This document shows, one piece after another, positions 10,938 through 49,857 of a stretch of DNA of 64,000 nucleotides; position 1 is the stretch's first letter; each line of letters opens with the position of its first letter. The notes under the pieces were generated by a model, which did no database searches, was not told where the DNA came from, and was given only the letters and a program-made list of their open reading frames with translations. The stretch is taken from positions 522,924-586,923 of the forward strand of contig CAJTFO010000001.1 in assembly GCA_910575755.1 (NCBI GenBank), read 5' to 3'. This DNA is from Desulfovibrionaceae bacterium (lineage in GTDB: Bacteria > Desulfobacterota > Desulfovibrionia > Desulfovibrionales > Desulfovibrionaceae). Made by a program: the position numbers and the translations under genes.

Positions 10938-10949
10938 AGGGCAAAATTC

Positions 10950-27171: not shown

Positions 27172-27318
27172 GCGGAAAATATAGCCAAAAGGCTATATTT
27201 ATGCAAACTGCAAATATGCCAGATATGCGCTGGTTTTCGTTGATGCGGCCAATAATCGCCCTCTATCCTTGGCGAAAAATGTACGCACCGTGCATTGAAG
27301 CCGGGAATCAGGCGCGAA

Positions 27319-28464
27319 ATGAAAGATTGGCTCGTCAAAAGGCTCACGCCTCGCAAGCAAAAAGAAGACCGCTGGTTGGGGCTGGCCGAAAGCACCCAGA
27401 CAATCTGGGAGCAGGACTTTGACCCGCAGCTTGTACGGCTTGAAGCTCTCCGCTCATATTTCAGTGCTGATGACGCCGACCTGGCGCGCAAACTGCGCGA
27501 AATGGGCGACTATTTTGCGGCGGACATGCCGCGGTCGAAAGACCGCCCCATTGCTGTTGCCTGGAGGCGTCTTGAACTTGAGTACAAAGACCTCGAACTG
27601 ATTATCACTTCTGTCTTCCGCAGGCATTACAGCGACCTTCCCGTCACCTGGTTCCCGCTGTTTGCCCCTCTTGATGAACCCTACGGGACGCGCTTCATCC
27701 CCGCCGATGGCCCATGGCCAGAAAAGAAAAACGTCCCGCCGGAGGGAATGTTCCTTACCTCACGGGGCCTTCTGGGAACCGACCACGCGCACCTTCTCTC
27801 CCTTGGCCTGACAAAACAGACTTTCCTCGACAAGGCCCTTCCGCTTCTTCTGCGCGCCAAACCGCTGCATATCGTCTTTGACGGTACTCTCTGGTATGCG
27901 CGTTTTGACTTCCCGTTTGAAGGCAATCCTGTTGCTTCCTGGGAACGCGACTGCGGTATTTTTGAAATGAATTTTGCCGTTCAGGGGACGTATTTCGATT
28001 CAACGGATGCCGATGCCTGTCCGCTTGACGTGCAAAAGATGTCTTGCCGATGGGAGCGTGAGCAGCCTTGCATTGCCATCCCCTTTATCAGACCGAAAGA
28101 GCGCTTCTGGCACATGGATTGGCACGCTCCAGAGGGTTTTCCCCCCGACTGGTTGCCCCTTGATTGGTATATGGCCGGACACGAAGGAGAGCCTTGTATT
28201 CCTCTTGGCCTGTACCTGATTGAGAAAAAACGCTCTATCATCTTCCGTCAAAGTCTGGGGGAACTGGAAATCCATGTGGAGAAGACGACGCTTCCCTCGT
28301 GCCCCACGCCGTTCGTGTCGGAAATAGATGCGGCAGGCGAAAAGAACGTGTCCATGTCCGTAAAATTTCAAGGTCTGGACCGTCTGGATCGCTATCCGCG
28401 TTTCGATGACATCCCCGCTGATACATTCCCTCTGGATATGCCCGTAGGAGGTGCATATGCCTGA
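27319..28464 (+). CDS. Tail protein I-like baseplate protein
   Basis: About 381 residues from ATG 27319; TTG at 27295 is possible and no strong ribosome-binding site decides between them. The N-terminal half (LESTQTIWEQDFDP-like helix region, then LIITSVFRRHYSDLPVTWF) resembles the tail-protein-I position in P2-like baseplates, where a protein links wedge to tail fibre. The C-terminal half is beta-rich and may bind the fibre. Family membership is tentative; position after gp25 and gp6 supports it. Confidence 0.55.
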   Translation: MKDWLVKRLTPRKQKEDRWLGLAESTQTIWEQDFDPQLVRLEALRSYFSADDADLARKLREMGDYFAADMPRSKDRPIAVAWRRLELEYKDLELIITSVFRRHYSDLPVTWFPLFAPLDEPYGTRFIPADGPWPEKKNVPPEGMFLTSRGLLGTDHAHLLSLGLTKQTFLDKALPLLLRAKPLHIVFDGTLWYARFDFPFEGNPVASWERDCGIFEMNFAVQGTYFDSTDADACPLDVQKMSCRWEREQPCIAIPFIRPKERFWHMDWHAPEGFPPDWLPLDWYMAGHEGEPCIPLGLYLIEKKRSIIFRQSLGELEIHVEKTTLPSCPTPFVSEIDAAGEKNVSMSVKFQGLDRLDRYPRFDDIPADTFPLDMPVGGAYA

Positions 28465-28900
28465 AACTCCGAAAGTATGGCAACGAGCAAAGCTGCTCAA
28501 TCGGTACTATGACAAGGTAGGCATGGCCGCTGCGGGCATTGGGCGTTGTCCCCGTTTCGTGGAGTTCCGCGCCGGCTTTGGACTGGTGGATGAATACAGC
28601 CCATCTGAGCTGGAATTGCAGGACATTCCCCCAGATATGAAGGAAATCCCCGGAGAATTTTACCGGGGATTTGTAGACGTATCCTACAGCGCCGGGATTG
28701 CTCTGTGCAAATGCGAAATCCCGCAAGGCGCTGTCGGCGCTCCGGTACGCCACAACCTTATCGGCATCTTCGATGATGAGGGGGATCTGATTGCCGTTTG
28801 CTCCACACTTCCCGACTGGGTAACGCCTGCCGAGGTCTATCGGGCGTTCCCGGCCATAACCTTCCCGCGTGAGGAGGAACGCACAGATGGCAACGAATGA
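28457..28900 (+). CDS. Tail-collar / DUF3751-like fibre protein
   Basis: 147 residues from ATG 28457 with GGAGG five bases before. The order of blocks, YDKVGMAAAGIGRCPRFVEF, then GEFYRGFVDVSYSAGIALCKCEI and NLIGIFDDEGDLIAVCS, resembles the N-terminal collar domain of phage tail fibres. It is shorter than most such fibres, so it may be a baseplate adaptor. The next gene starts inside its 3' end. Confidence 0.55.
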   Translation: MPETPKVWQRAKLLNRYYDKVGMAAAGIGRCPRFVEFRAGFGLVDEYSPSELELQDIPPDMKEIPGEFYRGFVDVSYSAGIALCKCEIPQGAVGAPVRHNLIGIFDDEGDLIAVCSTLPDWVTPAEVYRAFPAITFPREEERTDGNE

Positions 28901-29594
28901 CGCCCCCTTGTTGCGCCAGAGTGTCCGCTGGGGGGAAGAATATGTTTCCCGCGCTCTGAACATGAAGATGGCCGGAATCGTCAAGCCTGGCGTCTATCAT
29001 GGCTTTGTACTCAAACCCGGCGGCACCATGTCAGTTCTCGTAGATCACGGATCGGACTATCCGCGTAGCGTAGCCGTGGTTGAGCGGAACGGTTATTCCC
29101 TCACGGTAGTTATGGACGATCCCGGCCTTGTGCGTATCCCGGCCACGGGAACATGGTTCGTCTGCCTTGAGGCGTTCTACGCCCCCACGCAGCAAGGGTA
29201 CCAGCGCATTGTGGTTCGGGAACAGCCGGAACCGCACCATGTCGTGCTGGGCAAGGTCAGAGCCGGTATGCCATTGACGGAACCCGGAGAAGATGAGGGC
29301 GACGATGGTGACGGGGAAGCGTCGGCTCCCGGTGAGGCGGTGGTCATCACCGAGGACATGATTTCTTCGGATGAAATTGACAAGGCCAACGCCGACATTG
29401 CCACAGTCAGACAGATGGAAGCGCTCTCCGAGCAGCTTGAAAGGCATACCCGGAGAACGCTCATCCTGCACGCCGAATCCACCACGCGGATGATACATCT
29501 TTCCCGTCGGCTTACGACCCTCGCCCTTACCGGAAGCGCGGCGGCGGGGGATGAAGACACCTATAGCCCGGCAAGCCCGGCAAACAGAGGATGA
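28887..29594 (+). CDS. Unknown tail-fibre-region protein
   Basis: 235 residues from ATG 28887 (GAGGAGG nine bases upstream). An N-terminal beta-rich domain with an aromatic, glycine-rich core (PGVYHGFVLKPGGTMSVLVDHG), an acidic linker (about 130-150), and a C-terminal helix likely to form coiled coil (about 165-215). It lies between a collar-like protein and the DGR target and may be a fibre attachment or trimerisation protein. No family recognised. Confidence 0.55.
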   Translation: MATNDAPLLRQSVRWGEEYVSRALNMKMAGIVKPGVYHGFVLKPGGTMSVLVDHGSDYPRSVAVVERNGYSLTVVMDDPGLVRIPATGTWFVCLEAFYAPTQQGYQRIVVREQPEPHHVVLGKVRAGMPLTEPGEDEGDDGDGEASAPGEAVVITEDMISSDEIDKANADIATVRQMEALSEQLERHTRRTLILHAESTTRMIHLSRRLTTLALTGSAAAGDEDTYSPASPANRG

Positions 29595-29596
29595 CA

Positions 29597-31279
29597 ATGC
29601 CCGAAAACGAAATCCCCGACATGCAGCCCACGATGCAGGATGTCGCCGATAAACTGGATAAGGGGGCAGATGCGCTTGCGTCCGCCCAGGAACAGCTTGG
29701 CGGCGATGTAGCCAGGGCGCTTGCCCGACTTGCGGAGCACGAAGCCGATTCCAGCGCTCACGGGGGGGCCATTGGTGGCGGCGCATCCGCCTCCCAGATT
29801 GCCGAGGCTGTTGCAGCCCATAACGAAAGCCCCCTGGCGCATGGTCTGGATAATCCCGACAGTGCCATGTATCAGATGATTGCTGCCGCCGCTGCCAATG
29901 CCGTCAATGACAAAATCGGTGAGTCTGACGGGCAAATCAATCTGGTGGCACACGCCAAGACACATGCAGCAGGCGCCGCTGATGCCCTCACCCCTGCGGA
30001 CATCGGAGCCGTAGCGGATAATGATGACCGGCTTTCGGACGCGCGCGATCCGAAGCCTCACCATCATACGATGGACGACATCACCGGCTTTTCTCTTCCT
30101 GGTGAAGAGGGAGGGGCCGAAGATGGCGGTACGGCCTCCATTTCAGAGTTTGTGGAGAAAAAAGCGAAGGCTGCCGTTTCCGCGCACGATTCCAGCGAAT
30201 CCGCCCACGCCGCCCTCTTCGAGAATATCCTTGTCGGCAATACAAGTCCCATTATCGGCATCTGCCGTGTGGCAACAGGCGGCGGCGCCGGCCTCTGGTT
30301 CAACATTGACGAAGAAGGGAATCCGGTGTCGCCCAACACCGCCTACTTCGACAATAATCCGGTTTTCGGGGGCATCCGGCGCATGATTGTGGACGATCAA
30401 ATCATGGGCAAGATTCCCCAGTTCTGGATGAAGGACTTCACCCCCACGGAAGGAATGTTCGCGGGGAAGCCGTGCAAGCTTATTTCTCCGGGCCAGAAAG
30501 AGGGATTCCGCATTCATCCGGCGTTCATGCACAATAACGCCCAGATTCCCTACTACCTGCTTGGCTGCTACGAAGCCACGGATGAAGGCGGAAACCCGAA
30601 GAAACTCGGTTCCCGGCCCGGCAAACTCCCCTTCGTCAATGTGAACTTTGATACGATGAAGACCTACTGCGCCAACAGAAACGTCAACGGTGTGTCGGGG
30701 TTCATGCTCTGGGATGTTTATCAGTGGTCGGCCTTGACCCTGCTCATGCTCATTGAGCTTGCAACGACCGATGCTCAGTCCAGGTTGGGTCGCGGCAATG
30801 TGGACAAGACATGGGATGGGAAAACGAGCTATGCCGTCAACACCGACAGCCTGGTCAACCATGTCCCATACCGCGGCTTCCACGCCCTCTACGGAAACGT
30901 CTGGAAGATGCTTGATGGTGTTCGGGCGGATTCCAACAAGAAGACGGAAATTTTCAAGAATGACGGCACACGCGCGTGGATTTCCACGGGATTTGCCATG
31001 CCGCCATACTCCAGCGGTCTCACTGGCTGGCCGGTTTCCATGCGTTCCGGCAAGGGTGACGGTTACAACTTCGATGATGTTTTTCTGCCGGAAGTTGTTA
31101 CCGGGGCGGAAAACAGCGCAACATACGCGGACGGCTTTTGGGGGCCAGTTGCTAATGGTGTTTGTTATCAGGGCGGCACTTGGCATTTTGGGGCGCACTG
31201 TGGCCCTTTTTGCCTGAATTTCGGTAATCCGTCGAGTGATGCGTACCTCAGCCTTGGAGGCCGTCTCGCAAAGATTTAG
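29597..31279 (+). CDS. DGR target: tail fibre protein with C-type-lectin-like variable domain
   Basis: 560 residues from ATG 29597 (AGAGG six bases before; ATG 29591 is too close to it). The N-terminal half has fibre features: helical stretches, then DDRLSDARDPKPHHH and DITGF, a repeat-like motif common in tail fibres. From about residue 270 the C-terminal domain (WDVYQWSALTLLML, YGNVWKMLDG, GTRAWISTGFAMPP) is of the CLec / formylglycine-generating-enzyme type that DGRs diversify. The last 36 codons are the VR, ending GPFCLNFGNPSS...LGGRLAKI. The protein probably forms the receptor-binding tip. Confidence 0.9.
   Translation: MPENEIPDMQPTMQDVADKLDKGADALASAQEQLGGDVARALARLAEHEADSSAHGGAIGGGASASQIAEAVAAHNESPLAHGLDNPDSAMYQMIAAAAANAVNDKIGESDGQINLVAHAKTHAAGAADALTPADIGAVADNDDRLSDARDPKPHHHTMDDITGFSLPGEEGGAEDGGTASISEFVEKKAKAAVSAHDSSESAHAALFENILVGNTSPIIGICRVATGGGAGLWFNIDEEGNPVSPNTAYFDNNPVFGGIRRMIVDDQIMGKIPQFWMKDFTPTEGMFAGKPCKLISPGQKEGFRIHPAFMHNNAQIPYYLLGCYEATDEGGNPKKLGSRPGKLPFVNVNFDTMKTYCANRNVNGVSGFMLWDVYQWSALTLLMLIELATTDAQSRLGRGNVDKTWDGKTSYAVNTDSLVNHVPYRGFHALYGNVWKMLDGVRADSNKKTEIFKNDGTRAWISTGFAMPPYSSGLTGWPVSMRSGKGDGYNFDDVFLPEVVTGAENSATYADGFWGPVANGVCYQGGTWHFGAHCGPFCLNFGNPSSDAYLSLGGRLAKI
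31166..31272 (+). repeat. DGR variable repeat (VR)
   Basis: 107 bp at the 3' end of the target gene align without gaps to the TR at 32823-32929. There are 15 differences, and every one is at a position where the TR has A (31 A positions in total); none of the 76 non-A positions differ. Changed codons alter at least ten residues (for example Asn to Thr, His, Phe, Gly, Asp, Tyr, Ser), while several changes are silent or Ile to Leu. The match ends at CTCGCAAA, seven bases before the gene's stop. Confidence 0.97.
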
Positions 31280-31312
31280 GCTACTGTGTCCTGTTCACTG
31301 CCTTTCTGAAAA

Positions 31313-31330
31313 GGCCGCCGAGAGGCGGCC
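31313..31330 (+). promoter_or_regulatory. GRNA-tetraloop hairpin downstream of the VR (likely retrohoming element)
   Basis: GGCCGCC (31313-31319), loop GAGA (31320-31323) and GGCGGCC (31324-31330) form a perfect 7-bp stem with a GRNA-type tetraloop, 41 bases past the VR end. A hairpin or cruciform with a 4-base GRNA loop just downstream of the VR is known to be needed for efficient homing in the Bordetella phage BPP-1 DGR. A second, shorter hairpin (ACCGCC/GGCGGT, 31338-31352) follows. It could also act as a weak terminator. Confidence 0.7.
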
Positions 31331-31379
31331 GTGCTTTACCGCCGAAGGCGGTCGAAAATATTTTTGAAGGAGAAAGCGT

Positions 31380-31643
31380 ATGTCCGAAATCAAATTTTCT
31401 TATGGCGGACAGGAGTTCACTACGCCCGTACCGCTTTCCGGCCATGTGAAGCTGTACGCAGTACCTGAAAACTACAGCGATGACGGCCTGTACCTCGCAA
31501 CATGGGCCAACGGGGAAATCGAACCCATCCCTGCCTGTGCCATCGGCGATACACTCATGCTTGCCCACCTGGAAATGACGCAGGACGGCAAATCCTGCAA
31601 AAGAATCTATCTCGCGGAGGGGGTGAAGTATGCCCAGAAGTAA
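31380..31643 (+). CDS. Small unknown protein in the fibre/DGR cluster
   Basis: 87 residues with GAAGGAG before the ATG. Beta-rich and acidic; begins MSEIKFSYGGQEFTTPVPLSG. It follows the DGR target and precedes a probable fibre-assembly protein. No domain recognised. It could help folding of the variable fibre tip, as accessory genes between VR and RT sometimes do, but there is no direct sign of this. Confidence 0.6.
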   Translation: MSEIKFSYGGQEFTTPVPLSGHVKLYAVPENYSDDGLYLATWANGEIEPIPACAIGDTLMLAHLEMTQDGKSCKRIYLAEGVKYAQK

Positions 31644-32046
31644 CCAAGGGGTGAATCCTGAAACCTGGCTGTCAGGCGTGGAACACGCCAAGGCCCAAAA
31701 ACTGGCCGAGATCAACGACCAGTGTGATATGATGCTGGGCGTTCTGACCAAGAGCTACCCCGGTTCCGAACTCCTCACCTTCGACCAGCAAAAGACGGAG
31801 GCGGAAGCATATCTCTCCGACCAGAGCAAACCATGCCCGCTTCTGGCCCCGCTTGCCCAAGCGCGTGGCATAGAACTGCAAGACCTGTGTAATCGCGTCA
31901 TCGTCAAAGCTACAGCCTTTTCTGCCGCGTCCGGTGCAATCATCGGCCAGAGGCAGAAGTTTGAGGATATGCTGGACGCCTGTACCACTCCTGAACAGGT
32001 GGCGGCCATCGAAGTCATCTATGCGCTTCCGGGAGCAGGGGCATGA
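31630..32046 (+). CDS. Tail fibre assembly-like protein (DUF4376 type)
   Basis: 138 residues; start overlaps the preceding gene. The helical layout with AKAQKLAEINDQCDMMLG near the N-terminus and FDQQKTEAEAYLSD in the middle is that of DUF4376/tail-fibre assembly proteins, which chaperone fibres into trimers. The stop overlaps the next start (ATGA). It probably assists the variable fibre. Confidence 0.65.
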   Translation: MPRSNQGVNPETWLSGVEHAKAQKLAEINDQCDMMLGVLTKSYPGSELLTFDQQKTEAEAYLSDQSKPCPLLAPLAQARGIELQDLCNRVIVKATAFSAASGAIIGQRQKFEDMLDACTTPEQVAAIEVIYALPGAGA

Positions 32047-32390
32047 AAACGTGGGACTGGCGATTTGGCCCCAGAAAGGCCGCATTTCGCCATAATGCGA
32101 AGCAATGCCTCATTGCGGCAGACCAGCTCGGAAACGCCTCTCTGGGGCTGTTTCTGGGCCTTCTTGGCCTGCTATACCTTCTCCCCCGCGCCGCGGGTTA
32201 TTGGTGGGCCGATGAAACTATCAGCGCCCATTGCTGGCGCTGGGAAATAAGCGGTGTGCGGCGGTGGCCTCGTGTCGTTGTGGATTTTCTGGCCGCCTGC
32301 CTGGGTGACATCAACCACTGCCGGGAATCGTACATTTCGGAGAGGGAGGGACGGCACTTGCCCCCTGATATTCGCGCCGGCCCCGAATAG
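32043..32390 (+). CDS. Unknown phage protein (SGYRxR-like His/Arg-rich type)
   Basis: 115 residues. A hydrophobic N-terminal stretch (LGLFLGLLGLLYLLP, about 33-47) is followed by WADETISAHCWRWEISGVRR and HCRESYISEREGRHLPPDIR, the pattern of small phage proteins annotated only as hypothetical. It is coupled to the gene before it. An RNA or membrane role cannot be judged from sequence. Confidence 0.55.
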   Translation: MKTWDWRFGPRKAAFRHNAKQCLIAADQLGNASLGLFLGLLGLLYLLPRAAGYWWADETISAHCWRWEISGVRRWPRVVVDFLAACLGDINHCRESYISEREGRHLPPDIRAGPE

Positions 32391-32422
32391 CTCTTGTCTG
32401 TCTGTTTGGCCAATGATACCTT

Positions 32423-32446
32423 GCCCCCTGACAAAGGGGGCTTTTT
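32423..32446 (+). terminator. Intrinsic terminator immediately upstream of avd
   Basis: GCCCCC (32423-32428) pairs with GGGGGC (32436-32441) around the loop TGACAAA, followed by TTTTT. It should end the fibre operon. The avd start (GTG 32448) lies 2 bases after the T-run, with the right arm AGGGGG serving as its ribosome-binding site, so avd translation may depend on read-through or on opening of the hairpin. Confidence 0.7.
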
Positions 32447-32447
32447 C

Positions 32448-32825
32448 GTGGCATTGGATAGCTTGCAAATCCTGACGAAACTGGAGGAACTGAATCAGTA
32501 TTCTCATCAGACCGTTATGCTCTTTCCAAAGTCAGAAAGGCATGTTCTCGCGCAGGATATACGCAATACCCTTGCCACTCTGATTCACCTCACAATCACT
32601 TCCGCCAAACGCTATTACAAAAAGACAACATTGCAGGATATGGACATAGAGCTTGAATACCTTCGTGTTCTGATTCGTATGTCCAGAAACCTTGGTTACA
32701 TCAACGACCATAAATATGAAGTGTGGTCTGGTCATGTTTCCGAAGTCGGAAGGATGCTTGGCGGATGGCTCAAACATGTTCGTGACCCAAAACCTGGGAC
32801 ACAAGATAGCAGGGCTACAACCTAA
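32448..32825 (+). CDS. avd: DGR accessory variability determinant (Avd)
   Basis: 125 residues from GTG 32448 (AGGGGG upstream); a longer form from TTG 32394 would add 18 residues that cross a terminator hairpin. The protein is almost all helix, basic, with LQILTKLEELNQYSHQTVML and IRNTLATLIHLTITSAKRYY, matching Avd four-helix-bundle proteins that pentamerise and bind RT and template RNA. Its TAA stop (32823-32825) is the first codon of the TR. The following gene is the RT. Confidence 0.85.
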   Translation: MALDSLQILTKLEELNQYSHQTVMLFPKSERHVLAQDIRNTLATLIHLTITSAKRYYKKTTLQDMDIELEYLRVLIRMSRNLGYINDHKYEVWSGHVSEVGRMLGGWLKHVRDPKPGTQDSRATT

Positions 32826-32929
32826 AAGGGCGGCAATTGGAATAATGGGGCGCACTGTGGCCCTTTTTGCCTGAATTTCAATAATCCATCGAGTAATGCA
32901 AACATCAACATTGGAGGCCGTCTCGCAAA
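32823..32929 (+). ncRNA. DGR template repeat (TR)
   Basis: 107 bp matching the VR, offset by exactly 1657 bases. Read in the VR frame it encodes GGNWNNGAHCGPFCLNFNN and NANINIGGRLA, the Asn-rich (AAY codon) pattern of DGR templates. Thirty-one adenines are available for mutagenesis. It begins at the avd stop codon and ends about 158 bases before the RT start. The RNA made from it is the template for error-prone cDNA synthesis. Confidence 0.96.
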
Positions 32930-33087
32930 TCAGCACCCGCCAGAGGCCATGTCCCTACCGGGGGCGTGGACAGCGCGAGTGATTTGGGGTTGTAGTCCCC
33001 CTCGGCCAACAGCGCCGGGGAAACAACAATGGGGCCGGAACGGCAAGTAAGATGCCTGAACGCGGTTCCGGTCCTTTTTTGGAGCCT
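32930..33087 (+). ncRNA. Spacer part of the DGR RNA, between TR and RT
   Basis: No gene fits here. A GC-rich stem is visible near 32997-33020 (CCCC.CGGC against GC.CCGGGG), the kind of structure that in the studied DGR helps RT and Avd bind and prime. The region ends with a terminator-like hairpin (33035-33071) placed just before the RT start. The exact ends of the RNA are not visible. Confidence 0.65.
33035..33080 (+). terminator. Terminator-like hairpin between TR RNA and RT gene
   Basis: CCGGAAC (33035-33041) pairs with GTTCCGG (33065-33071), with an inner stem GGCA/TGCC in the loop; the tail TCCTTTTTT runs to 33080. GGAG (33081-33084) and the RT ATG (33088) follow at once. It could end the template RNA while letting a share of transcripts continue into RT. 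Confidence 0.6.
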
Positions 33088-34131
33088 ATGCCAAAACCCG
33101 CAAAAAATTTATGGCCGCAGGTCGTGGACTTCGGCAACCTATACGCCGCATGGCATGGAGCGCGTTGTGGAAAACGGTACTATGATGAGGTACTCCGATT
33201 CTACGGACGCCTTGAAGACAACCTGCTTGAAATCCAACGAGCCTTGATTGCCGGGACGTGGTTCCCTTCTCCGTGTCGAGAGTTCGTTATTCGAGAACCC
33301 AAACTCCGCCTTGTCCAGGCGCCCACTTTCGCAGACCGCATCGTCCATCGTTCCCTTGTGAAAGTCATCGAACCGTTCTTTGAACGGCGGTTTATCCCGG
33401 ACAGCTTTGCCTGCCGGAAAGACAAAGGGCCGCACGAGGCCAGCAAACGACTCCGCAGTTTTATCACAACCGCAAGCGCGAACTGGTTCCATCCCTATGC
33501 GCTCAAGGCGGACATCAAAAGCTACTTCCCCAACATCCGGCACGGCATTCTGTTACGCCAGATTGCAAGGACACTGGGCGATGTGAATGTGCTTGATCTC
33601 TGCGGAAAAATCGTCCTGAAAAACGGCTTTACCGATTCAGGGCTCCCCATCGGGGCATTGACATCGCAACTCTTTGCAAATGTCTATCTGGATAAGTTCG
33701 ACCATTTTGTAAAAGATGAATTGGGGGTCAAATTCTATGTCAGATATATGGATGATTTTATAATCGTTGGCGAAGATAAACGATTTTTGAAATCAATTCT
33801 TGCATCTATTGAAAATTTTCTGAATGAAGAGCTTGAATTGAATCTAAATCCGAAAACGTCCATCTTTCCTATATCACACGGCATTGATTTTTCTGGATAT
33901 AGACACTGGACAACACATACTTTGCCCAGAAAGCGCAACACACGCCGGGCAAGGCTTGATTTCAGAAGGATTGCGCGAGAATACGCCGAAGGGAAAATAG
34001 ATTTGGACTACATCCGCCCGCGAGTGGCTTCATTCTGCGGCCAGATGAAGCACTGTGACGCCACCAGAACAACGGAAAGCGTTCTCTCCGAGCTTGTCCT
34101 GGTCCGCCCTCCACGCGGACGCATGGCGTGA
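33088..34131 (+). CDS. DGR reverse transcriptase
   Basis: 347 residues from ATG 33088 (GGAG before it); ATG 33052 is in frame but lies in the terminator loop. Motifs in order: KADIKSYFP with Asp142, the DGR-type IGALTSQ at 188-194 (SQ instead of QG, typical of DGR RTs), YMDD at 220-223 inside YVRYMDDFIIVG, and FSGYRHW near 273. The enzyme copies TR RNA into cDNA with errors opposite adenines; the cDNA then replaces the VR. No retron or group II maturase domain is attached. Confidence 0.95.
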   Translation: MPKPAKNLWPQVVDFGNLYAAWHGARCGKRYYDEVLRFYGRLEDNLLEIQRALIAGTWFPSPCREFVIREPKLRLVQAPTFADRIVHRSLVKVIEPFFERRFIPDSFACRKDKGPHEASKRLRSFITTASANWFHPYALKADIKSYFPNIRHGILLRQIARTLGDVNVLDLCGKIVLKNGFTDSGLPIGALTSQLFANVYLDKFDHFVKDELGVKFYVRYMDDFIIVGEDKRFLKSILASIENFLNEELELNLNPKTSIFPISHGIDFSGYRHWTTHTLPRKRNTRRARLDFRRIAREYAEGKIDLDYIRPRVASFCGQMKHCDATRTTESVLSELVLVRPPRGRMA

Positions 34132-34237: not shown

Positions 34238-34846
34238 ATGGCAGCACCATCAAAGCAAGTTCGGCTCCCATTTGACAAGCTCACGGAACAGAATCTCCGC
34301 CCGATCATCAAAAAAATGGAAAAATGGGGTTTGGAGGTCACGTCCGTGGATGCGCCGAATCGCGCGCGCCGGGAAAGTGGCTTCTTGCTCAAAGACGTGA
34401 CCTTCGTCTTCGAGGACGGCCAAAAGATGCTCGTTCGCGTGAAGTCTGATGGTACCGTCTTTCAGGTCAAGCTGAACAAGAAGGTCGTCCCTATCCGGCA
34501 TGTGGATGACATGGACAAGGCCATCATCGAGATGGTGGATTACGTCCAGGAAAACGCGAAGGCGTATGAGCGTGCGAAGCTCCAACGGGAACGTCGACGC
34601 AAGCTGCATATCGACCCGCCGCCAGTGGTCACAAACCGCCGGGAGAAGATTGAGCGTGCCAAGGGCCAGCTTGCAGAACTCACTGCAAGCAACGAAGACC
34701 TTCAGGCCCAAATTTCCGCAACGGAAACCACAGTTCAAATGAAGCAGGCTGAGTTGGACAAGGCTGTGGCAGCCCTCAAGGCGGAACAAAATAAAACCGT
34801 CGAACTGGAGCGCATACTGACAGAACTGGAGGGGGCACAAGCATGA
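34238..34846 (+). CDS. Unknown coiled-coil protein at the head of the Dar-like cluster
   Basis: 202 residues. An N-terminal alpha/beta domain (FDKLTEQNLRPIIKKMEKWGLEV, VTFVFEDGQKMLVRVKSDGT) is followed by a long charged helix (about 115-200) with heptad spacing. No family is recognised. It is coupled by a 4-base overlap with the DarA-N-like gene, so it is likely an internal head or packaging partner. In the 107-base gap upstream, GGAACC/GGTTCC flank a small hairpin just before the start. Confidence 0.6.
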   Translation: MAAPSKQVRLPFDKLTEQNLRPIIKKMEKWGLEVTSVDAPNRARRESGFLLKDVTFVFEDGQKMLVRVKSDGTVFQVKLNKKVVPIRHVDDMDKAIIEMVDYVQENAKAYERAKLQRERRRKLHIDPPPVVTNRREKIERAKGQLAELTASNEDLQAQISATETTVQMKQAELDKAVAALKAEQNKTVELERILTELEGAQA

Positions 34847-35991
34847 ACGGGGATTTTGATTTCTTTGAGCCTGCGCTTGCATCCGAAGACGGTGCCACTC
34901 CCGTAAGCGCCCCCAACCCGTATTGGCAAGGGCATCGTGTCGTGGACAGGGACGATCTCTTTCCGAAGGGCTTTTCTCAAGTCGAGCTTGATGCCACCTA
35001 TGCAAGCCTCGCCAATGACGTTCACGACCTTGGTCTCTTGCTCGAATCGCCTTCCCTGGACGAACTGGACTACTACAATCCCGGCAGGGATGAGGTCGAG
35101 GAAGGCTATGTTCTTGAGGCTATAACCGTTGAGCACTTCTCGCGCACGGAACGCCGCATGGCCGCCGTGGTGCGGGTACTGAACCGGCACCTCTCCGATT
35201 CGGAAATCAAAGCCTTGCCTCCGGTTGTCGGGAAGCCGAAGAAATCCGGTTCCTTTGCGTATGTTATCGTGCAGCTTCCCTTCTCCGATGGACAAACGGT
35301 GAATGTCGTCTTCCATTCGCCGGAAGGGGATAAAAAACGCATCGGCCCAAGTGACGCCATTATTGCCTTCCGCTGGCTCCTCAACAAGCGGGACATTACG
35401 CATGTCGTGGCCCCCGAAGACGGGGAAGAAATCTCTCTGGAGAGCATTGCGAAGCGTATCACGCAACTCGTAGTCAAGAACTCGGCGAGGTTTGAGCGCC
35501 AGCAGAAAGCGGCGCAAGCGGAGCGGAAAGAGCTTGAAGAAACCCGTGAGGCCGTAAAGGACGCGGAAGAACGCCAGTCCGCCCTGATGGAACAGGTTTC
35601 CGCCAAGGCCAAAGAGACGGAAACCATTGAAGCGCGGCTTTCCAACACGCTTTCCCTACTGGAGAAACAGAAGACCATCAACGCGGAATTGCAGGCGAAG
35701 ATTGACGCGCTGCGCAGGGCCAAGCCCGGCGGCGGAACAGGCGGAACCTCTGGCGATGGCAAAGGTAAAAAGGGTGACACTGCGGGCAATGGTAGTGGCA
35801 CACCGCACTATGCCCGCGACCTTCGGGACATTCTGGACGGCAAATACGATGCCGATTCCGGCAAGGTGCTTGACCTGCTCGAACAGGCAATCACGGCCGC
35901 GGAGAGTGACGGCAAGCTTGAAGAGTTCCAAGCCCTCTTGGATGCCGCATCGAATCACCTGACCGATCTGCTGGCCAAGGAGGCCGCATGA
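34843..35991 (+). CDS. P1 DarA N-terminal-domain-like protein
   Basis: 382 residues. Residues about 75-215 (VIVQLPFSDGQTVNVVFHSP, IGPSDAIIAFRWLLNKRDITHVVAP) match the layout of the DarA N-terminal domain found in P1-like internal head proteins that help protect DNA against type I restriction. The middle is coiled coil and a Gly-rich linker lies at about 290-315. It overlaps both neighbours by 4 bases. The assignment is by pattern and context and needs a profile search. Confidence 0.6.
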   Translation: MNGDFDFFEPALASEDGATPVSAPNPYWQGHRVVDRDDLFPKGFSQVELDATYASLANDVHDLGLLLESPSLDELDYYNPGRDEVEEGYVLEAITVEHFSRTERRMAAVVRVLNRHLSDSEIKALPPVVGKPKKSGSFAYVIVQLPFSDGQTVNVVFHSPEGDKKRIGPSDAIIAFRWLLNKRDITHVVAPEDGEEISLESIAKRITQLVVKNSARFERQQKAAQAERKELEETREAVKDAEERQSALMEQVSAKAKETETIEARLSNTLSLLEKQKTINAELQAKIDALRRAKPGGGTGGTSGDGKGKKGDTAGNGSGTPHYARDLRDILDGKYDADSGKVLDLLEQAITAAESDGKLEEFQALLDAASNHLTDLLAKEAA

Positions 35992-38742: not shown

Positions 38743-39032
38743 GCAAATTCATTTTCAGCGTCAATGTCTCTCCCGCAGAGGCAGGTGAAAGTTATGTATC
38801 TGTGTCGCTTGAATCGGACGCATGGGACGAAATTGTCAACGCCCCGCCAGAATATATTGGCGATGAAATGTCAGTCCTCATGCTCAAGCGAACCCTGAAT
38901 ACAGCGTATGTCATGTATGGCTACGCTTTCGATATGCAGAGATTCAGTCCGCGGCATCTCCATGAGGCTCTGTCTTCCAAAGGAATGAATTTTGCCGTGA
39001 ATGGCGATGTGCCAAGCAACCTCATCGACTAA
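38739..39032 (+). CDS. Small unknown protein
   Basis: 97 residues; start overlaps the previous stop (ATGA). Begins with a beta strand pair and contains WDEIVNAPPEYIGDEMSVLMLKRTLNTAY. No family recognised. It is between the zincin and the methylase-helicase and may act with either. Confidence 0.55.
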   Translation: MSKFIFSVNVSPAEAGESYVSVSLESDAWDEIVNAPPEYIGDEMSVLMLKRTLNTAYVMYGYAFDMQRFSPRHLHEALSSKGMNFAVNGDVPSNLID

Positions 39033-39048
39033 AGTGCGAGGTGATACA

Positions 39049-42000
39049 ATGCGAAACGCTATTTTTGAGCGCGCCCCGCTGGATGGTATTGTGGAGAAAG
39101 AGGTTCTCGCGGCAACGTCTTTCAAAGACATTGAGAAGCTCTTTTTCCGTCTGTTCAATGTTGCATTGCCAGGCGATCCGGACGCCTACAAGGCCGCCGG
39201 CTCCGATTACGGACTGAAAGTTCGCGGCAAGGAGGCGCGGGAAAAGCTCAACGCCCAATGCCGGGAAATCCTTTCCCGCGTTACATCGCCGGAAGAATTG
39301 ACCGCCGAAGACCGCGCCGTGCTGCTCCAATACAGTGGACGCGGCGGCCTCGCCGAAGGAAGCCAATACGAATACTATACGCCCACGCCCGTAGCCGAAG
39401 GGCTTTGGGAGGCCATGAAGGCCAACGGCTTTGAGAACGGCAACGTCATGGACCCGTGCTGTGGTGCGGGCGTTATGTCCGGTACGAAGCCTGGCGGAGT
39501 CGTTGTCAGCGGTAATGACCTTGATCCCACGAGTTCCAAGGTAGCGGCGCTGCTCAACCCGGAAGACAAGATTATCAATGCGCCCTTTGAACAGGTGGTC
39601 ATGGATACGCCCGACGATACCTTTGACGGCTGTATCACCAACGTCCCGTTCGGGGATCAGCGCGGGGCCTACAAACATATCGACCAAGCGTACAAGAACG
39701 AAAAACACATTGAACGCTATTTCATTCTGCGTATTCTGGACAAAATACGCCCCGGCAAGCTGGCCTGCCTGATTGTACCAACGAATATCGTGGGTACGCG
39801 CAGCGGCAAATGGACGCAGTTCCGACAGGCCGTGTCCCGCAAAGCTGAATTTCTGGGCGCCCACAAACTGCCTTCCGGGACATTCGCCGCGCAGGGTACG
39901 GATGCCGTTGTTGACCTTGTGGTTTTCCGCAAACACCCCAAAGACCTGCTGGACAAGCTCAAGAAAGACGAAATTTCAACCCAAACCCTGGAAGCGTCCA
40001 AGGTATTCTGGGATGAGTTTATCGATGGCAAATACTGGATGGGCGAAGGCAGACGGTTTATTCAGGGCCGATACATCCCGAAGGACGCCAAGGACCGCTT
40101 TTCACGCGAGCGCGTGGAAGCCGAAGGCCCAATTACCGGCGAAGCCATGAAGCGCAAGCTGGCGATCAAGTTCCATAGCCGGATCGACTGGGATATGCTG
40201 GAACTGGAAGAACCCATTGACCGAGCTTACAGCGAGGGCGATCAGCGGTACATAAACGGTGAACCTTACGAGCTCCGCAACGGGCAATGGAACAAGCTGG
40301 AAACCGCCTTGGAGCAGACGGAGATTGACCCCGCAACCTATGGGGTAAGTACCGTTCAGGAGCTTGAATCCGTACTTGCCGACCCGCGTACAGCTATGAA
40401 TATGCCTCTGGACGCGGCTTTTTCCGCACTGGTGTCCTACCCTCACCTTATGGGCCAGCAGCAAAAAGACGCCGTGAAATTCGCCATGAGCCAGCCGCGC
40501 GAAGAAGTGCGGTTACAGGTCTATCGGGGGTCCATGATCGGAGCCATGCTTGCCAGGATGGCAAGCGACGAGGCCCAGGGCGAGGATGTTTCCGAACGCC
40601 GCAAGGCCCTGCAAGAGCTTGTCGTAGCTGAGATTGAAAAATACGGGCACCCGGCAAATAACCCCAGGCTCTCCGTCTCTGGTCCGGACGCCCGCGCTTT
40701 TGGCGTTTTCGTGAACTGTGTCAATGTCAAGGGTGAATTTTCCGCCATGCTGGCCGGCACGTTGGACAAGTCCACAGGCGGCGGTTACCGCGAGGATGAC
40801 ATCGCCGACATCGTTGCCCACCTCTCTCGCACACAAGAAGGCATAGAACTCGAAGACGTGAAGGCTCTTTATAAGGGGGCAATCAAGATCAACAGTCTTG
40901 GGGACATCGCGGAAATTGACAGTATTGCCATTACCGAAGACGGCATGATTGAAACAATGGCAAGCTACTGTTCGGGGAGTGTGCTGCCCAAAATGGCGGC
41001 CATGGCAAAATCCATTGAGCAGACCGACGATGAACGGCTCAAGACCAAGTTTCGCAAGCAGATTGACGAGATGAACCGGCGGATTCCCCGTTCGAAAATT
41101 GAGGACATCACGTTCAATATGCAAGCGCAATGGTTCCCAAGAAAGTATCTGATCGAATTTTTGCGCGACAACGGTTATTCCCACGCTACATACGGCAGAA
41201 TGGAAAACATTGAAACCGAAGGGCCGGACGGCAAAAAGGAAGTTGTGCAATCCTTTGTCGAGGATTTTAATGCCAAAGATGGGACGCTTTTTATTGAAGG
41301 CCCTGCCGGAAGGCCCAAAGAGTTCAGCAAACAGATTGAAAGGTATTTGAACGGAGGGAATATCACCTCGTCAAAGAGGGAAATCGCCGAAGCATACAAG
41401 AACGAAGCGGACAAGCTGGAAAGCATGTTCGATAACTTCATGAAAACACACATTGACGTTGACGATCTGGCAGAACAGTACAATTTGCGCTTCAACAGCT
41501 ATGTTGAGCCGGAATATGCAAAGGCGGCTCTGGACATTGATGAATATATTTCGGGCGAAATTGTGCCCCATGATTACCAGGCCGCCGAAGTACGCCGTCT
41601 TTCAGACATCGGATCGGGTATCTGCGGTTTTGGCGTTGGGCTTGGCAAGAGTTTCACCGCTCTGGCCATGGCCGCATACAACCACAAGCACAACAAGGCG
41701 AAACGCACCTGTGTGGTTGTCCCCTCGTCCGTGCTGGAAAACTGGTATCACGAAGCCAGAATGTTCTATAATGATGGGTATTTCCGTTCCAATGTGCTTT
41801 TTGTGGGGCTTGAACCCAAGACCAACAGGGAAGGCGTGGTTGAACGCCGGGCGCTTGTGGACGAACAGGGGCAACCCCGCACGAGCAAAAGCGGCCAACC
41901 GCTCATGCAGGACGTGATTCGCTTTACCAATTCCCCGGAAGACATTTTCGAGCAGATGTGGCGCATCCCGCAGTCTAATTGTTCCCTGGTTGTGATGACC

Positions 42001-45000
42001 AAGGAAAAGTTCGCCTCAATCCCGATGCGGCCAGAATCCGTGGACGCCTACACCGATGAAATGGTCAACCGGCACATGATGAGCGACGAGGCCGCTCAGG
42101 GTGAGGATAAAGGCAAGGGGAAAAAAAAGCCGAAGGGCTACGACCTCGCCAAAAAAATTGAGGGGCTGCGGGGGCGATACAGCGACACGGGATCAAAAAA
42201 GAAAGGGGAATTGCCCTATCTGGAAGATATGGGCTTTGACAGCATCGTGACCGATGAATCCCACTTCTTCAAAAATTCTCTGGGCGGAGGCGAATCAACT
42301 CAGGGCATCGCCTATATCCCGAACGCTGACCCGGCAAATATCGCCGTGGATATGTCCCTCAAGAGCCACTACATCCGGCAGAAGAACGGCGGACGCGGCG
42401 TATACGGCTTGACGGCCACGCCTGTAACCAACTCTCCGATTGAGATATTCAACATGCTCAATCTGGTGGCGGACAAGCATGACTTTGAGGAGCGTGGCAT
42501 TTACACCGTGGATGATTTCATCCGTGTTTTCGGCAAGATTGAGCTGCGTACACGAGCCGGCGTTGACGGTGAACTGAAAGAACAGGATACTCTGGTGGGT
42601 TTCAAGAACCTTTCCGGGTTGAGGAACCTTTTCAGAAAGTACGTCAATATCAAGACCGTGGAAGACGTGGATGATGAGATTCATGTGCCGGATGCCGTGG
42701 AAGTCATTGATGAAGTTCCCATGTCCGACAACCAGACCGCAGTTTATGAGCAATTGAAGCAGGAAGTCAGTGAGGCAAAAAATGGCGGTCTCTTCTCGGT
42801 CATGCGCGATATGGATCGCTGCACAACCGACCTTGATCTCTATTACCACCGGATTACCTATTCTATTGCCAGAGACAAAAAAAACAAGCTGGAAGAGGTA
42901 GCCAACGCCATATCGGGAGAGCACAAGATCAAGACGGAGGATGAGGAAGGCAAGGCTGTTTCCTCAACGATCAGTGTCAATGCCAGAGTGATTGACGAAG
43001 GCGGCGATTCCGTGTCCATGTCCGTACCCGAAGAGTTGGAAGGCGTGGTCATAGCAGCCATGCAGCGAGCCGGAATCAACCTGAATGATGTGAATCATCC
43101 TCTCTCGCCCAAGTATGCCAAGCTGATTGAAAACCTCAAAAAACACCTGGACGCGGGCGGAAAGCAACTCGTCTTCACCGAAGAAAAGACGCAACACGCC
43201 AAAATCAAGCGTATTCTGGTTCATAATCTGCCCATAACGGATAACCAAGTGGCGATTATCAATGCTGAAGATGCCTCCGGGGACAAGCTGGATAAAATCT
43301 CCAAGGCATACAACGCCGGCGACATCAAGATCGTCATTGCCAACAAGAAAGCGGAAGTGGGCGTGAACCTGCAAAAAGGCACAACAGCCATTCACCATCT
43401 CACTCTGCCCTGGACACCTGCCAGCATCAATCAGCGCAACGGTCGTGGTGTTCGGCAGGGCAACAAGGTGGATTCGGTCGATATTTTTTACTACGTCGGG
43501 AAGGGCACCTTCGACGAATACCGGCAGCAGATGCTCAAGGGCAAGGCGAACTGGATCAACGCCCTGCTTATGGGGAACGAAGCCACAGCGGCCAATGCCG
43601 ACCTTGAAGCGGACGAGGAAATGTATGCCGCGATGACCGGCACATTGGAAGAGTATCGCAAGAAGCGGGCTGAAGAAGAGGCCAAAAAGGCGGCCCGCAG
43701 CCAGGCACAACTTGTCAATCGCCTGAAGCAGCTTGCCTCGCTCATGGAGGCCTTGAACAGTCATGATGCACGGCTGAGCAGCGCCAGGGATACATGCAAC
43801 CGTGAGATTGAAAAGGCTGAACAGTATCTGCAAAAATACCGGCAATACCCCGAACACTATGGAAACGAGGCCATCGCCAAGGCAGAAGCCAAAATAGCCA
43901 AGGCCAAGGCCCGACTGGCAGGGCTGGATGAAAAGTTTGAGGCGGAGAAGACCAAAAACGAATCACGCCGCAGGCAAGTTGTTGGCCTTCTGCGTCAGGC
44001 CAACAAGAACGGTGAACTGCCGTTTAGTGCGGAACTCATTGACCATCCCGAACGTGCGATTCTGTCGAGCAAGGGAAGCCTGTTCGCCGAGGGCGACACG
44101 ATTGAATACGAGGGAGGCCTCTATCTCATTGAGTCCATCATGCAGGATTACAGCGGCAAGCCGTCCGCCAAGCTGGAAACCATCTCGGCGCCGGAATACA
44201 GCTACCCCGCCTATGGGCTCAACCAGCATGAATTGGACAAGGCCCAAAAGGTATCCTACTCCGCGAGCGAACTTGCGGTAAAGAGGATGTTGTCCGGGAA
44301 TATGAAATATGCCGATCTGGCAACTTCCGGCGTTACAAAGCGGCAGTTTCTTGAAAACCTGCCGACCCTGAAAATGGAATTTCCCGCCTTTGTGCGCAGG
44401 GCCGAATCAGGAGAGATTGTTATCCTCGACGGCGAGTATCAAAAAAAGGAAGGTGATGAATTTGTCTGGCCCGAACCGCAAGATTCCGCCTTCCGCAAGG
44501 CGGCCATGCAGTCATGGCTTTCCAAGGTGGACATGAATCGTGTCAACAAAGACCACCTGCCCATGAAAAATCTCATGGTGCCGCTTTTTGGAGAGAACTT
44601 CTACGAAGAGGCCGTGCAATACGCCAATATCGCATCGGACGATGAACTGACGGAACTGTGCGAAAAAGTCTTTGAGGAAAGATTCGGCGCTGTGGACTTG
44701 AATTCGTCCAGGTTCTCCGAGAGAGATTTTGTCTACTATGTGAAAGAGACGTGCAGGAAAAAGAACATCCACAACGTCAGCGGCGCCATAACAATCGCCA
44801 CGCAGATAGTGGCGGGCAAGCGGGCTGAAATGGCCAGAAAGGCCGAAGACGCCAGGCGCGAGGCCGCGCGTGAGGCCGATGAGGCACTGCGCGCGAATCC
44901 GAACTTCAAAGAAGTTCCTCAGAAATGGAAGGAACTCTTTGAGGCAATGGACATCGAAATATGCTACAATACGCAGCCCTATCACAACTCATTCCGGGGG

Positions 45001-45195
45001 AGAAAAACAAGCTACGAAGCCTTTGAACGGCTGTTTATCCACGACAAGGCTTTTGGCGGCCCTGTGTACCAAAACAAGGAAAAACTCAAAGAGCATGGCG
45101 CTTCCTGGGCAAAAACATGGGATGAACGCTCCGGTGGATGGTGGCATCTCCCGGCAGAGGTTGAACTTGAGACGCTGTATGCTATCCTCTCGTGA
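39049..45195 (+). CDS. DarB-like methyltransferase-helicase
   Basis: 2048 residues from ATG 39049 (GAGG eight bases upstream). An N6-adenine methylase-like domain has DPCCGAGVMSG (from Asp135) and ITNVPFGD (Asn198; NVPF replaces NPPY). A superfamily 2 helicase follows: GLGKS (Lys867), DESH (Asp1069) and QRNGRGVRQG (from Gln1462). Then come long coiled coils and a C-terminal domain with GASWAKTWDERSGGWWHLP, like DUF5710. P1 DarB has the same two-part design and shields phage DNA from type I restriction after packaging in the head. It is the largest gene here. Confidence 0.85.
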   Translation: MRNAIFERAPLDGIVEKEVLAATSFKDIEKLFFRLFNVALPGDPDAYKAAGSDYGLKVRGKEAREKLNAQCREILSRVTSPEELTAEDRAVLLQYSGRGGLAEGSQYEYYTPTPVAEGLWEAMKANGFENGNVMDPCCGAGVMSGTKPGGVVVSGNDLDPTSSKVAALLNPEDKIINAPFEQVVMDTPDDTFDGCITNVPFGDQRGAYKHIDQAYKNEKHIERYFILRILDKIRPGKLACLIVPTNIVGTRSGKWTQFRQAVSRKAEFLGAHKLPSGTFAAQGTDAVVDLVVFRKHPKDLLDKLKKDEISTQTLEASKVFWDEFIDGKYWMGEGRRFIQGRYIPKDAKDRFSRERVEAEGPITGEAMKRKLAIKFHSRIDWDMLELEEPIDRAYSEGDQRYINGEPYELRNGQWNKLETALEQTEIDPATYGVSTVQELESVLADPRTAMNMPLDAAFSALVSYPHLMGQQQKDAVKFAMSQPREEVRLQVYRGSMIGAMLARMASDEAQGEDVSERRKALQELVVAEIEKYGHPANNPRLSVSGPDARAFGVFVNCVNVKGEFSAMLAGTLDKSTGGGYREDDIADIVAHLSRTQEGIELEDVKALYKGAIKINSLGDIAEIDSIAITEDGMIETMASYCSGSVLPKMAAMAKSIEQTDDERLKTKFRKQIDEMNRRIPRSKIEDITFNMQAQWFPRKYLIEFLRDNGYSHATYGRMENIETEGPDGKKEVVQSFVEDFNAKDGTLFIEGPAGRPKEFSKQIERYLNGGNITSSKREIAEAYKNEADKLESMFDNFMKTHIDVDDLAEQYNLRFNSYVEPEYAKAALDIDEYISGEIVPHDYQAAEVRRLSDIGSGICGFGVGLGKSFTALAMAAYNHKHNKAKRTCVVVPSSVLENWYHEARMFYNDGYFRSNVLFVGLEPKTNREGVVERRALVDEQGQPRTSKSGQPLMQDVIRFTNSPEDIFEQMWRIPQSNCSLVVMTKEKFASIPMRPESVDAYTDEMVNRHMMSDEAAQGEDKGKGKKKPKGYDLAKKIEGLRGRYSDTGSKKKGELPYLEDMGFDSIVTDESHFFKNSLGGGESTQGIAYIPNADPANIAVDMSLKSHYIRQKNGGRGVYGLTATPVTNSPIEIFNMLNLVADKHDFEERGIYTVDDFIRVFGKIELRTRAGVDGELKEQDTLVGFKNLSGLRNLFRKYVNIKTVEDVDDEIHVPDAVEVIDEVPMSDNQTAVYEQLKQEVSEAKNGGLFSVMRDMDRCTTDLDLYYHRITYSIARDKKNKLEEVANAISGEHKIKTEDEEGKAVSSTISVNARVIDEGGDSVSMSVPEELEGVVIAAMQRAGINLNDVNHPLSPKYAKLIENLKKHLDAGGKQLVFTEEKTQHAKIKRILVHNLPITDNQVAIINAEDASGDKLDKISKAYNAGDIKIVIANKKAEVGVNLQKGTTAIHHLTLPWTPASINQRNGRGVRQGNKVDSVDIFYYVGKGTFDEYRQQMLKGKANWINALLMGNEATAANADLEADEEMYAAMTGTLEEYRKKRAEEEAKKAARSQAQLVNRLKQLASLMEALNSHDARLSSARDTCNREIEKAEQYLQKYRQYPEHYGNEAIAKAEAKIAKAKARLAGLDEKFEAEKTKNESRRRQVVGLLRQANKNGELPFSAELIDHPERAILSSKGSLFAEGDTIEYEGGLYLIESIMQDYSGKPSAKLETISAPEYSYPAYGLNQHELDKAQKVSYSASELAVKRMLSGNMKYADLATSGVTKRQFLENLPTLKMEFPAFVRRAESGEIVILDGEYQKKEGDEFVWPEPQDSAFRKAAMQSWLSKVDMNRVNKDHLPMKNLMVPLFGENFYEEAVQYANIASDDELTELCEKVFEERFGAVDLNSSRFSERDFVYYVKETCRKKNIHNVSGAITIATQIVAGKRAEMARKAEDARREAAREADEALRANPNFKEVPQKWKELFEAMDIEICYNTQPYHNSFRGRKTSYEAFERLFIHDKAFGGPVYQNKEKLKEHGASWAKTWDERSGGWWHLPAEVELETLYAILS

Positions 45196-49594: not shown

Positions 49595-49789
49595 TGAATT
49601 TCAACCAACAGTGAGCGGTTTTTGCCTGTTCTTCCCTATTGAAGGAAGGGCTTTTCTGTGCGGATTTGAGGAATGAATTGATGAAAAATAGTGAATAATT
49701 ATATGCAGCTATGTGGATTCTTTGAACAGATTTCTGACAAGGAAAGATAGGCAGGGATTGAGAGGCGTCTTTTTGGGTTTTTTATCAAA

Positions 49790-49854: not shown

Positions 49855-49857
49855 GAT
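49843..49857 (+). repeat. Attachment-site core, left copy
   Basis: CCCTCTCCGCCAGAT, the last bases of the tRNA-Ser gene plus GAT, is repeated exactly at 62098-62112. These 15-bp direct repeats bound the island that contains the integrase at 50016 and the mob genes. Confidence 0.8.

Follow-up and report, generated by a model that had tools for sequence, protein, structure and literature searches.

Positions 29597-34131 of the window (the whole 64-kb stretch of a Desulfovibrionaceae genome analysed here) hold, as we conclude with high confidence, a complete diversity-generating retroelement (DGR) carried by a P1-like prophage. The element likely acts by mutagenic retrohoming to diversify a predicted tail-fibre tip, and it sits in an interval that is likely a slot for exchanged tail-variation modules. 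On the + strand, the target gene with the variable repeat (VR) at its 3′ end is followed by three small genes, the accessory variability determinant gene avd, the template repeat (TR) and the reverse transcriptase (RT) gene. A complete DGR had been claimed in an earlier note made from the sequence alone, and all the parts named there were found, in the claimed order. In this system, the RT together with Avd would copy the TR RNA and make errors at adenines, after which the mutated cDNA would replace the VR. We presume the steps of priming, cDNA synthesis and homing by analogy with the DGR of phage BPP-1, and a changed VR would probably affect which cells are bound.

The two repeats display the adenine-specific pattern of such elements. 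Over 103 bp (TR 32827-32929, VR 31170-31272) all 13 differences fall at TR adenines, of which there are 29 (hypergeometric p 6e-9), and over an extended 106 bp (32824-32929 and 31167-31272) this holds for 15 out of 15 differences (32 adenines, p 9e-10). The earlier note had given 107 bp, 15 differences and 31 adenines; its 15 adenine-only differences stand, with a trivial mismatch in length and adenine count. The last 19 bases of the VR (31254-31272) are identical to the TR in the window and in one relative described below (G079), a second one (G080) being readable to 31267, and such an unchanged 3′ end is expected of the site of initiation of mutagenic homing (IMH). Read in the frame of the target, the TR contains 18 adenine-bearing codons, nine of which are AAT or AAC; a stop codon can arise from only one of the 18, at the 5′ edge, and the theoretical VR repertoire reaches about 1e14 peptides. 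The VR ends four bases before the stop codon of the target gene. The genome itself contains a single TR and a single VR, no additional VR being found.

A further argument comes from the comparison of three copies of the phage, one of them a 31-kb piece. Besides the prophage, records from two metagenomes were available: G079 (IMG/VR 3300006217_000029, 70,184 bp) and G080 (3300006204_000070, 31,199 bp). G079 differs from the prophage by 18 single nucleotide polymorphisms (SNPs) in the VR, 17 of them at TR adenines, and outside the VR, over about 70.1 kb, by one SNP (39465) and a 1-bp insertion near C1:520140, together with the two bases that distinguish attL from attR. Its TR is identical to that of the window. 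G080 matches window positions 77-31267 with 14 SNPs, all in the VR and 13 of them at TR adenines; the only difference elsewhere is an 8-bp insertion near position 545. As it is preceded by a similar 8-mer, it resembles a product of slippage or duplication. Between the two records themselves there are nine VR SNPs, 9/9 at TR adenines. Compared with the TR, adenines account for 14 of the 15 VR differences in G079 and 16 of 17 in G080, which ends inside the VR end and lacks the TR. Altogether, 21 of the 32 adenine sites of the TR carry a different base in the VR of one or more of the three copies (G080 covers 29 sites). The two records also share, at nine VR sites, a state that differs from the window, so that they must have some history in common. 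The VR therefore turns over in nature with a constant TR, the latter being readable in one of the two relatives. The comparison of VRs between relatives proposed in the earlier note thus gave the predicted clustering at TR adenines, with one exceptional site discussed below, and this natural variation is strong evidence that the DGR has worked since the three copies diverged.

The architecture of G079 deserves mention. Its ends form an exact 77-bp terminal repeat made of eight bases of the left interior of the prophage plus att, and the left interior, att (in its attL version) and right interior are continuous. G079 is likely the excised circle of 70,107 bp, although a tandem or packaged concatemer would look alike.

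The proteins of the cassette belong to the expected families. RTs of the DGR clade are defined by the motifs [IVL]GxxxSQ and YxDD; the window RT displays IGALTSQ at residue 200 and YMDD at residue 232, exactly the motifs announced in the earlier note. It matches phrog_1423 (E 1e-123) and Pfam RVT_1, and its closest solved sequence is PDB 8ub7 (E 2e-50), which we take to be the BPP-1 enzyme. The NCBIfam matches of this RT (group II intron, retron, Abi and defence RTs) all stayed below threshold. Avd matches PF22296 (E 4e-29) and NF033474, both above the curated cut-offs, as well as phrog_3206, and weakly resembles Bbp7 (PDB 4dwl, E 0.05); the search of RT and Avd against DGR families suggested beforehand was hence positive for both proteins. 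The target protein has no Pfam or NCBIfam match and falls into phrog_5302, annotated ‘tail protein’. It resembles TaqVP, a solved DGR variable protein (PDB 5vf4), both by sequence profile (E 5e-6) and by Foldseek, which returned three 5vf4 chains (E 2e-5) and nothing else below 0.001. The C-type-lectin-like target proposed earlier is borne out by these matches, and the VR thus lies at the 3′ end of a gene for such a protein, the VR part of the structural model being of low confidence. By its position, fold and PHROG label, the target would be a tail-fibre tip.

The carrier was described in the earlier note as a myovirus-type prophage with a Dar-like cluster, which is right but undersold, since gene order and portal make it a P1-like phage. 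The prophage extends over about 70.2 kb (C1:502606-572780), and window bases 1 to 49857 are the part of it present here. It is bordered by 69-bp att repeats with two mismatches between attL and attR, and its own integrase lies beside attL (C1:502684-503976, phrog_1, E 7e-53). Among 21 P1 proteins searched against window positions 1-50000, 13 match at E ≤ 1e-3. Ten of these follow the P1 order pmgC-pmgB-sit-pmgA-bplA-16-S-hdf-darA-ddrB, S being represented by its N-terminus (window 28911-29042 against P1 S residues 20-63, 52% identity, E 1e-8), and darB, prt and pro are matched but arranged otherwise than in P1. No match was obtained under the same conditions for cin, R, tub, U, lydA, lydB, lydC and ddrA. 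The portal matches 24 phage records, 22 of them at about 36% identity (P1, P7, D6, RCS47, SJ46, JK004 and others) and two at 26-27%. Among 50,697 phage records, no nucleotide relative of the phage was found; the RT had translated matches in 167 phage records, all below 60% identity among the 20 matches listed. The P1 prophage is maintained as a plasmid. The present one is integrated at tRNA-Ser; no search was aimed at Cre or at plasmid replication genes. Because of this integration, with att repeats and integrase, we call the phage P1-like and not Punavirus. A host gene left of attL encodes HisD, with a best match of 93%, and the names given among the 120 matches listed are Desulfovibrio or Desulfovibrionaceae, which points to a Desulfovibrio host.

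Other integration-related sequences are found nearby. The integrase at 50016-51209 was rejected as that of the prophage, as it lies outside attR. It is adjoined by repeats of 111 nt and 187 nt at 52494-54642, each present twice, 1.86 kb apart and 89-92% identical; a second integrated element probably adjoins the prophage here. Further on, positions 62092-63486 share about 85% DNA identity with the attL-side stretch that carries the prophage integrase, and the frame 62122-63429 (minus strand) is an integrase by PHROG.

The location of the DGR within this backbone opens the question of its relation to the P1 Cin switch. In P1 (NC_005856 annotation) and D6 (MF356679 annotation), an invertible tail-fibre segment and cin are inserted between gp16, R and the S N-terminus on one side and lyd or hdf-darA on the other. 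In the window, the DGR fills the corresponding interval, after gp16, an R-like gene and an S-like stub, and the Cin search reported above was negative. This interval could be read in six distinct P1-like phages: that of the window, those of genomes G004 and G036, P1 and D6 (the two that were read out of the 24 portal-matching phage records), and that of G535, which belongs to another family. Two further records, L081 and L082, are duplicates of the G004 phage and were excluded from the tally. A tail-variation system occupies the interval in five of the six, Cin in two and a DGR in three. The DGR of G004 has a different target, an RT with IGSQISQ and YMDD that is 27% identical to the window RT, and TR/VR differences at adenines in 9/9 and 13/13 cases, counted in two overlapping blocks with a gap of 3 bases between them. 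That of G036 has a third target and a phrog_30516 protein in the place of Avd; its RT (IGVEPSQ and YMDD) is 23% identical to that of the window, and 17/17 TR/VR differences are at adenines. Neither target shows significant similarity to the window target (E 0.14 and 1.0), and the two share with each other about 47 residues at the VR only (E 0.006). On the other hand, the surrounding bplA, gp16, R, S-like stub, hdf and darA of G004 and G036 are 41-63% identical to their window counterparts over the matched stretches, and the ddrB-like gene 32-33%. In the G535 phage, whose stretch was located via bplA after a first 20-kb piece without match, the interval contains two genes, one of them small and the other weakly matching a tail-fibre family (phrog_8469, E 2e-4); neither an RT nor a P1 Cin match nor a TR/VR pair was found there.

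Since the sister prophages carry other DGRs in this interval, it is likely a slot for exchanged tail-variation modules, and module exchange would be its simplest reading. In a more general form, which we favour somewhat, the interval from gp16, R and the S N-terminus to hdf and the dar genes would be a dedicated tail-diversification slot of P1-like phages, where unrelated engines replace one another as cassettes: Cin inversion in the enterobacterial phages and, in those of Desulfovibrio, two or more DGR types that were acquired independently.

P1-like prophages were also sought in related genomes. The P1-type portal was found in 8 of 79 genomes of the genus and, in a phylum-wide sample of 395, in three genomes including the present one, bplA matches in 5 of 79 genomes of the genus, and darA matches in 8 of 288 genomes of the family, four of them strong. 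Several of these candidates could not serve for slot comparison. G072 was not counted, as its gp16, R and S-like stub lie on the contig of hdf and darA but apart and in opposite orientation; it has no TR/VR pair and no RT match in the genome. The G073 contig ends after the S-like stub, G029 and G038 offer short contigs that carry the portal with or without darB, and G048 and G060, with portal pieces only, stayed outside the comparison. G575 has, in 20 kb upstream of the portal, no tail and dar genes except a darB end piece, and no bplA match. Among phage records, the Xanthomonas phage Rb1 and the Acinetobacter phage ABMM1 (portal at 26-27%) differ too much in gene order, and the Cronobacter JK004 record ends before the slot.

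In a tree of 21 RTs, those of G004 and G036 are split from the window RT and the other Desulfovibrio prophage DGR RTs with support 100/99, the G036 branch being very long. The window RT is nearer to RTs of G013, G018, G037, G038 and G041 (48-54% identity). Apart from the genes of the cassette itself, none of the P1-like genes tried was found in the 10-14 kb read in G013, G018 and G037; the DGR contigs of G038 and G041 are too short to judge, G038 having a P1-type portal on another contig. Some of these loci are peculiar. The G018 locus (L052, G018:C1:56000-69000) contains at about 6548-7904, upstream of the DGR RT, several tandem units of about 320 bp including a TR/VR-like repeat, perhaps multiple VRs or decayed targets, and a similar 188-bp repeat pair exists in G013 (L051). 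A more distant DGR-type RT (36% identity) in L056 (G054:C68:14000-23381) is separated by about 5 kb from a fragment of a P1-type, sit-like gene, and the TR/VR scan found no pair in that locus. The features of the window and of the two sister cassettes are listed in the table.

Table. Features of the window DGR, its prophage surroundings and the sister DGRs (window positions unless another record is named)
Feature	Position	Strand	Remarks
gp16-like tail tube/baseplate gene, left neighbour of slot	27295..28464	+	phrog_2015; P1 gp16 32% identity
R-like tail-fibre assembly gene	28451..28900	+	phrog_2032 E 4e-4; same place as R of P1/D6
Short gene, start like constant N-terminus of P1 tail fibre S	28896..29594	+	P1 S match (see text)
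DGR target, C-type-lectin-like C-terminal part, predicted tail-fibre tip	29597..31279	+	phrog_5302, PDB 5vf4; open frame permits ATG 29591 or ATG 29597
VR	31170..31272	+	Similarity reaches 31167 across adenine differences; varies among three phage copies
Candidate IMH, invariant VR 3′ end	31254..31272	+	Identity to TR
Hairpin/cruciform candidate GGCCGCC-GAGA-GGCGGCC	31313..31330	+	40 nt after VR
Small gene, cassette-associated	31380..31643	+	40% identity in L053, another Desulfovibrio DGR locus
Small gene, cassette-associated	31630..32046	+	phrog_2618; 57% identity in L053
Small gene, cassette-associated	32043..32390	+	phrog_3342; 42% identity in L053
Terminator-like hairpin, then TTTTT, directly before likely avd start	32423..32441	+	Consensus scan only
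avd, accessory variability determinant	32448..32825	+	GTG start assumed; frame open from 32394
TR	32827..32929	+	Reaches 32824; same in G079
DGR-type RT	33052..34131	+	RVT_1, phrog_1423, IGALTSQ and YMDD
hdf-like gene, right neighbour of slot	34238..34846	+	phrog_1620 Hdf-like; P1 hdf E 3e-22
darA-like gene	34843..35991	+	DarA_N; P1 darA 35% identity
darB-like gene	39001..45195	+	P1 darB 35% identity, E 0
P1-type portal gene (prt)	45653..47266	+	Portal match to 24 phage records
attR, 69-bp repeat in 3′ part of tRNA-Ser	49789..49857	+	attL = C1:502606-502674
G004 DGR	L065 (G004:C15:28000-47000) 7044-10212		Different target; Avd-like phrog_3206
G036 DGR	L066 (G036:C193:15000-34000) 8076-12713	minus	Third target; phrog_30516 protein in avd place

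A hairpin after the VR is required for homing of BPP-1, and the pattern published for phage DGRs is a GC-rich stem of 7-10 bp with a GRNA loop, 4-34 bp from the VR (PMC3240598, as far as its text was available). The candidate at 31313-31330, with a 7-bp stem and a GAGA loop, fits this consensus, its distance of 40 nt being slightly beyond the range, and no other + strand stem of 7 bp or longer in the window has a 4-nt GRNA loop. By analogy, it may play the same role in homing. In the sister DGR of G036, an 8-bp stem closed by a GACA loop lies 28 nt past the VR. The hairpins of G004 and G037 are GC-rich, with loops of 5 nt and 3 nt, and G041 displays only a 6-bp hairpin 111 nt away. Across the whole window, Rfam gave no match at gathering score.

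Several observations weigh against our interpretation. The GRNA-loop hairpin is not general: it is present in one of the two sister DGRs (G036), and in six other DGR loci scanned (L053, L055, L033, L030, L031 and L034), no 4-nt-loop hairpin with a stem of at least 6 bp was found within 80 nt of the VR. The leader between TR and RT folds no better than shuffled sequences (z 0.59), no promoter-like site was detected upstream of avd, and a terminator-like hairpin precedes this gene. The AlphaFold model of the target is weak, with a mean pLDDT of 61 and less than 50 in the VR region. The VRs of the metagenome records are assembled consensus sequences, possibly mosaics. In the G004 sister phage the VR is unchanged, L065 and L081 being identical over 17,683 bp including the VR, and L081 identical to L082; since the two IMG/VR records of this phage are identical VR included, not every set of copies varies. 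Neither these unvaried copies nor the observations on the leader and on the region before avd contradict a DGR. Finally, there is a single VR site where the difference is not at an adenine, 31173, with G in the TR and the window and C in both G079 and G080. The earlier note had named such non-adenine differences in other strains as refuting; exactly one exists and the remainder are at TR adenines. As position 31173 is on the 5′ margin of the repeat, the change there may either be a usual point mutation or mark the 5′ limit of homing tracts. As a separate remark, the hairpin at 32423-32441 with its TTTTT could attenuate avd and RT expression.

Could the VR differences have a source other than retrohoming? 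They might have been imported by recombination with phages carrying related VRs, the DGR being no longer active. Related targets with other VRs do exist (98%, 89% and 79-80% identity), and the nine sites with the same state in G079 and G080 imply that part of the VR difference from the window is inherited. But no SNP tract flanks the VR: outside it, the comparison with G079 gives a single SNP over about 70 kb and that with G080 none over 31 kb. Moreover, confinement to TR adenines (17/18, 13/14 and 9/9) is unexpected from import unless the donor VRs are themselves DGR products, and the RT, Avd and TR are intact, so that we regard this origin as highly improbable. We give barely any credit to assembly artefacts in the metagenome records, caused by VR reads mixed with TR reads or with other VR variants. 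It is true that G080 stops five bases before the VR end, where assemblers break on TR/VR repeats or mixed variants. However, mixing with TR reads would yield TR bases, which does not agree with the 14 (G079) and 16 (G080) adenine-site differences from the TR; G079 spans VR and TR in one contig with the TR identical, and mixed variants would themselves be diversification. A working DGR could also act on a surface or defence protein of the lysogen instead of a tail-fibre tip, as suggested by the Quimbyviridae, where DGR targets are reported to be nested among defence-related genes (in the part of PMC8008677 available). Here hdf and darA directly follow the cassette, and the target gene is separate from the S-like stub. 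Nevertheless, phrog_5302 is a tail protein family and the gene comes after gp16, R and the S N-terminus, at the place of the tail fibre in P1, and we consider a non-tail target unlikely.

The shared slot is more debatable than the DGR itself. P1-like phages may generally have tail fibres at this place, which DGRs would simply follow, and the shared slot could then be a coincidence. DGRs beside tail genes are common. The G535 phage, with its plain tail-fibre-like gene and neither RT nor Cin match, agrees with such a view. The five out of six readable genomes with a tail-variation system in the slot, and the lack of significant similarity between the window target and that of either sister, argue in the other direction. 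We hold coincidence for a substantial possibility, yet the lesser one, and whether true or false, it leaves the DGR reading intact.

The DGR described here can be compared with several known systems. BPP-1 has the gene order mtd-avd-TR-brt, i.e. target with VR, avd, TR and RT, the same as in the window, where three extra small genes lie between target and avd. Both systems share adenine-specific TR/VR differences and a GRNA-loop hairpin after the VR, at a greater distance here than published (PMC3240598), and the nearest solved relatives of the window RT and, weakly, Avd are those given above. They differ in the carrier, which is P1-like here, and in the evidence for activity, which is read from natural variants and not from experiments. 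Closer in host, three Desulfovibrio piger prophages of 44.7, 46.5 and 58.0 kb have DGRs with an RT, an Avd-like protein and a formylglycine-generating enzyme (FGE)-sulfatase-type target; the text of that study assigns them to a partly Mu-like group B, its table putting one under C (accessible part of PMC12724379), whereas the present phage is P1-like and of 70 kb. The hankyphage DGR resembles ours in that copies of one temperate phage have identical TRs and VRs that vary in an adenine-specific way, but it belongs to a Bacteroides phage with a Mu-like transposase and its activity has also been measured in culture reads (PMC6199706, PMC12135933, both in part). The Cin-C-segment switch of P1 and D6 shares the interval and varies the tail fibre, but it does so by inverting DNA to exchange one fibre end for another, and not by retro-mutagenesis. 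TaqVP of Thermus aquaticus has the same FGE-type C-type-lectin fold with the VR at the C-terminus (PDB 5vf4; PMC6328139, in part), but the similarity is low (16-18% in the structure match) and host and phage are different.

The DGR itself is thus ordinary, and DGRs in temperate phages with VR turnover between copies are already known (PMC6199706, PMC12135933 and PMC12724379, as far as accessible). What is new is the P1-like carrier and the shared slot. In the open-access literature, as far as its text was covered, we found no DGR in a P1-like phage or in the place of Cin; the evidence for novelty is weak, because most subscription papers and bioRxiv preprints lie outside this scope.

Three copies of one phage, near-identical outside the VR, allow DGR action to be separated from background divergence and give a clean read-out of the TR adenines that have been rewritten. 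The slot comparison brings together two textbook ways of tail-fibre variation, the Cin switch of P1 and the DGR, at a single homologous place within one group of phages, and a shared slot makes the module-wise exchange of diversification mechanisms between phages testable. If the slot is indeed dedicated to tail diversification, one phage backbone could swap not only its receptor-binding protein but also the method of varying it.

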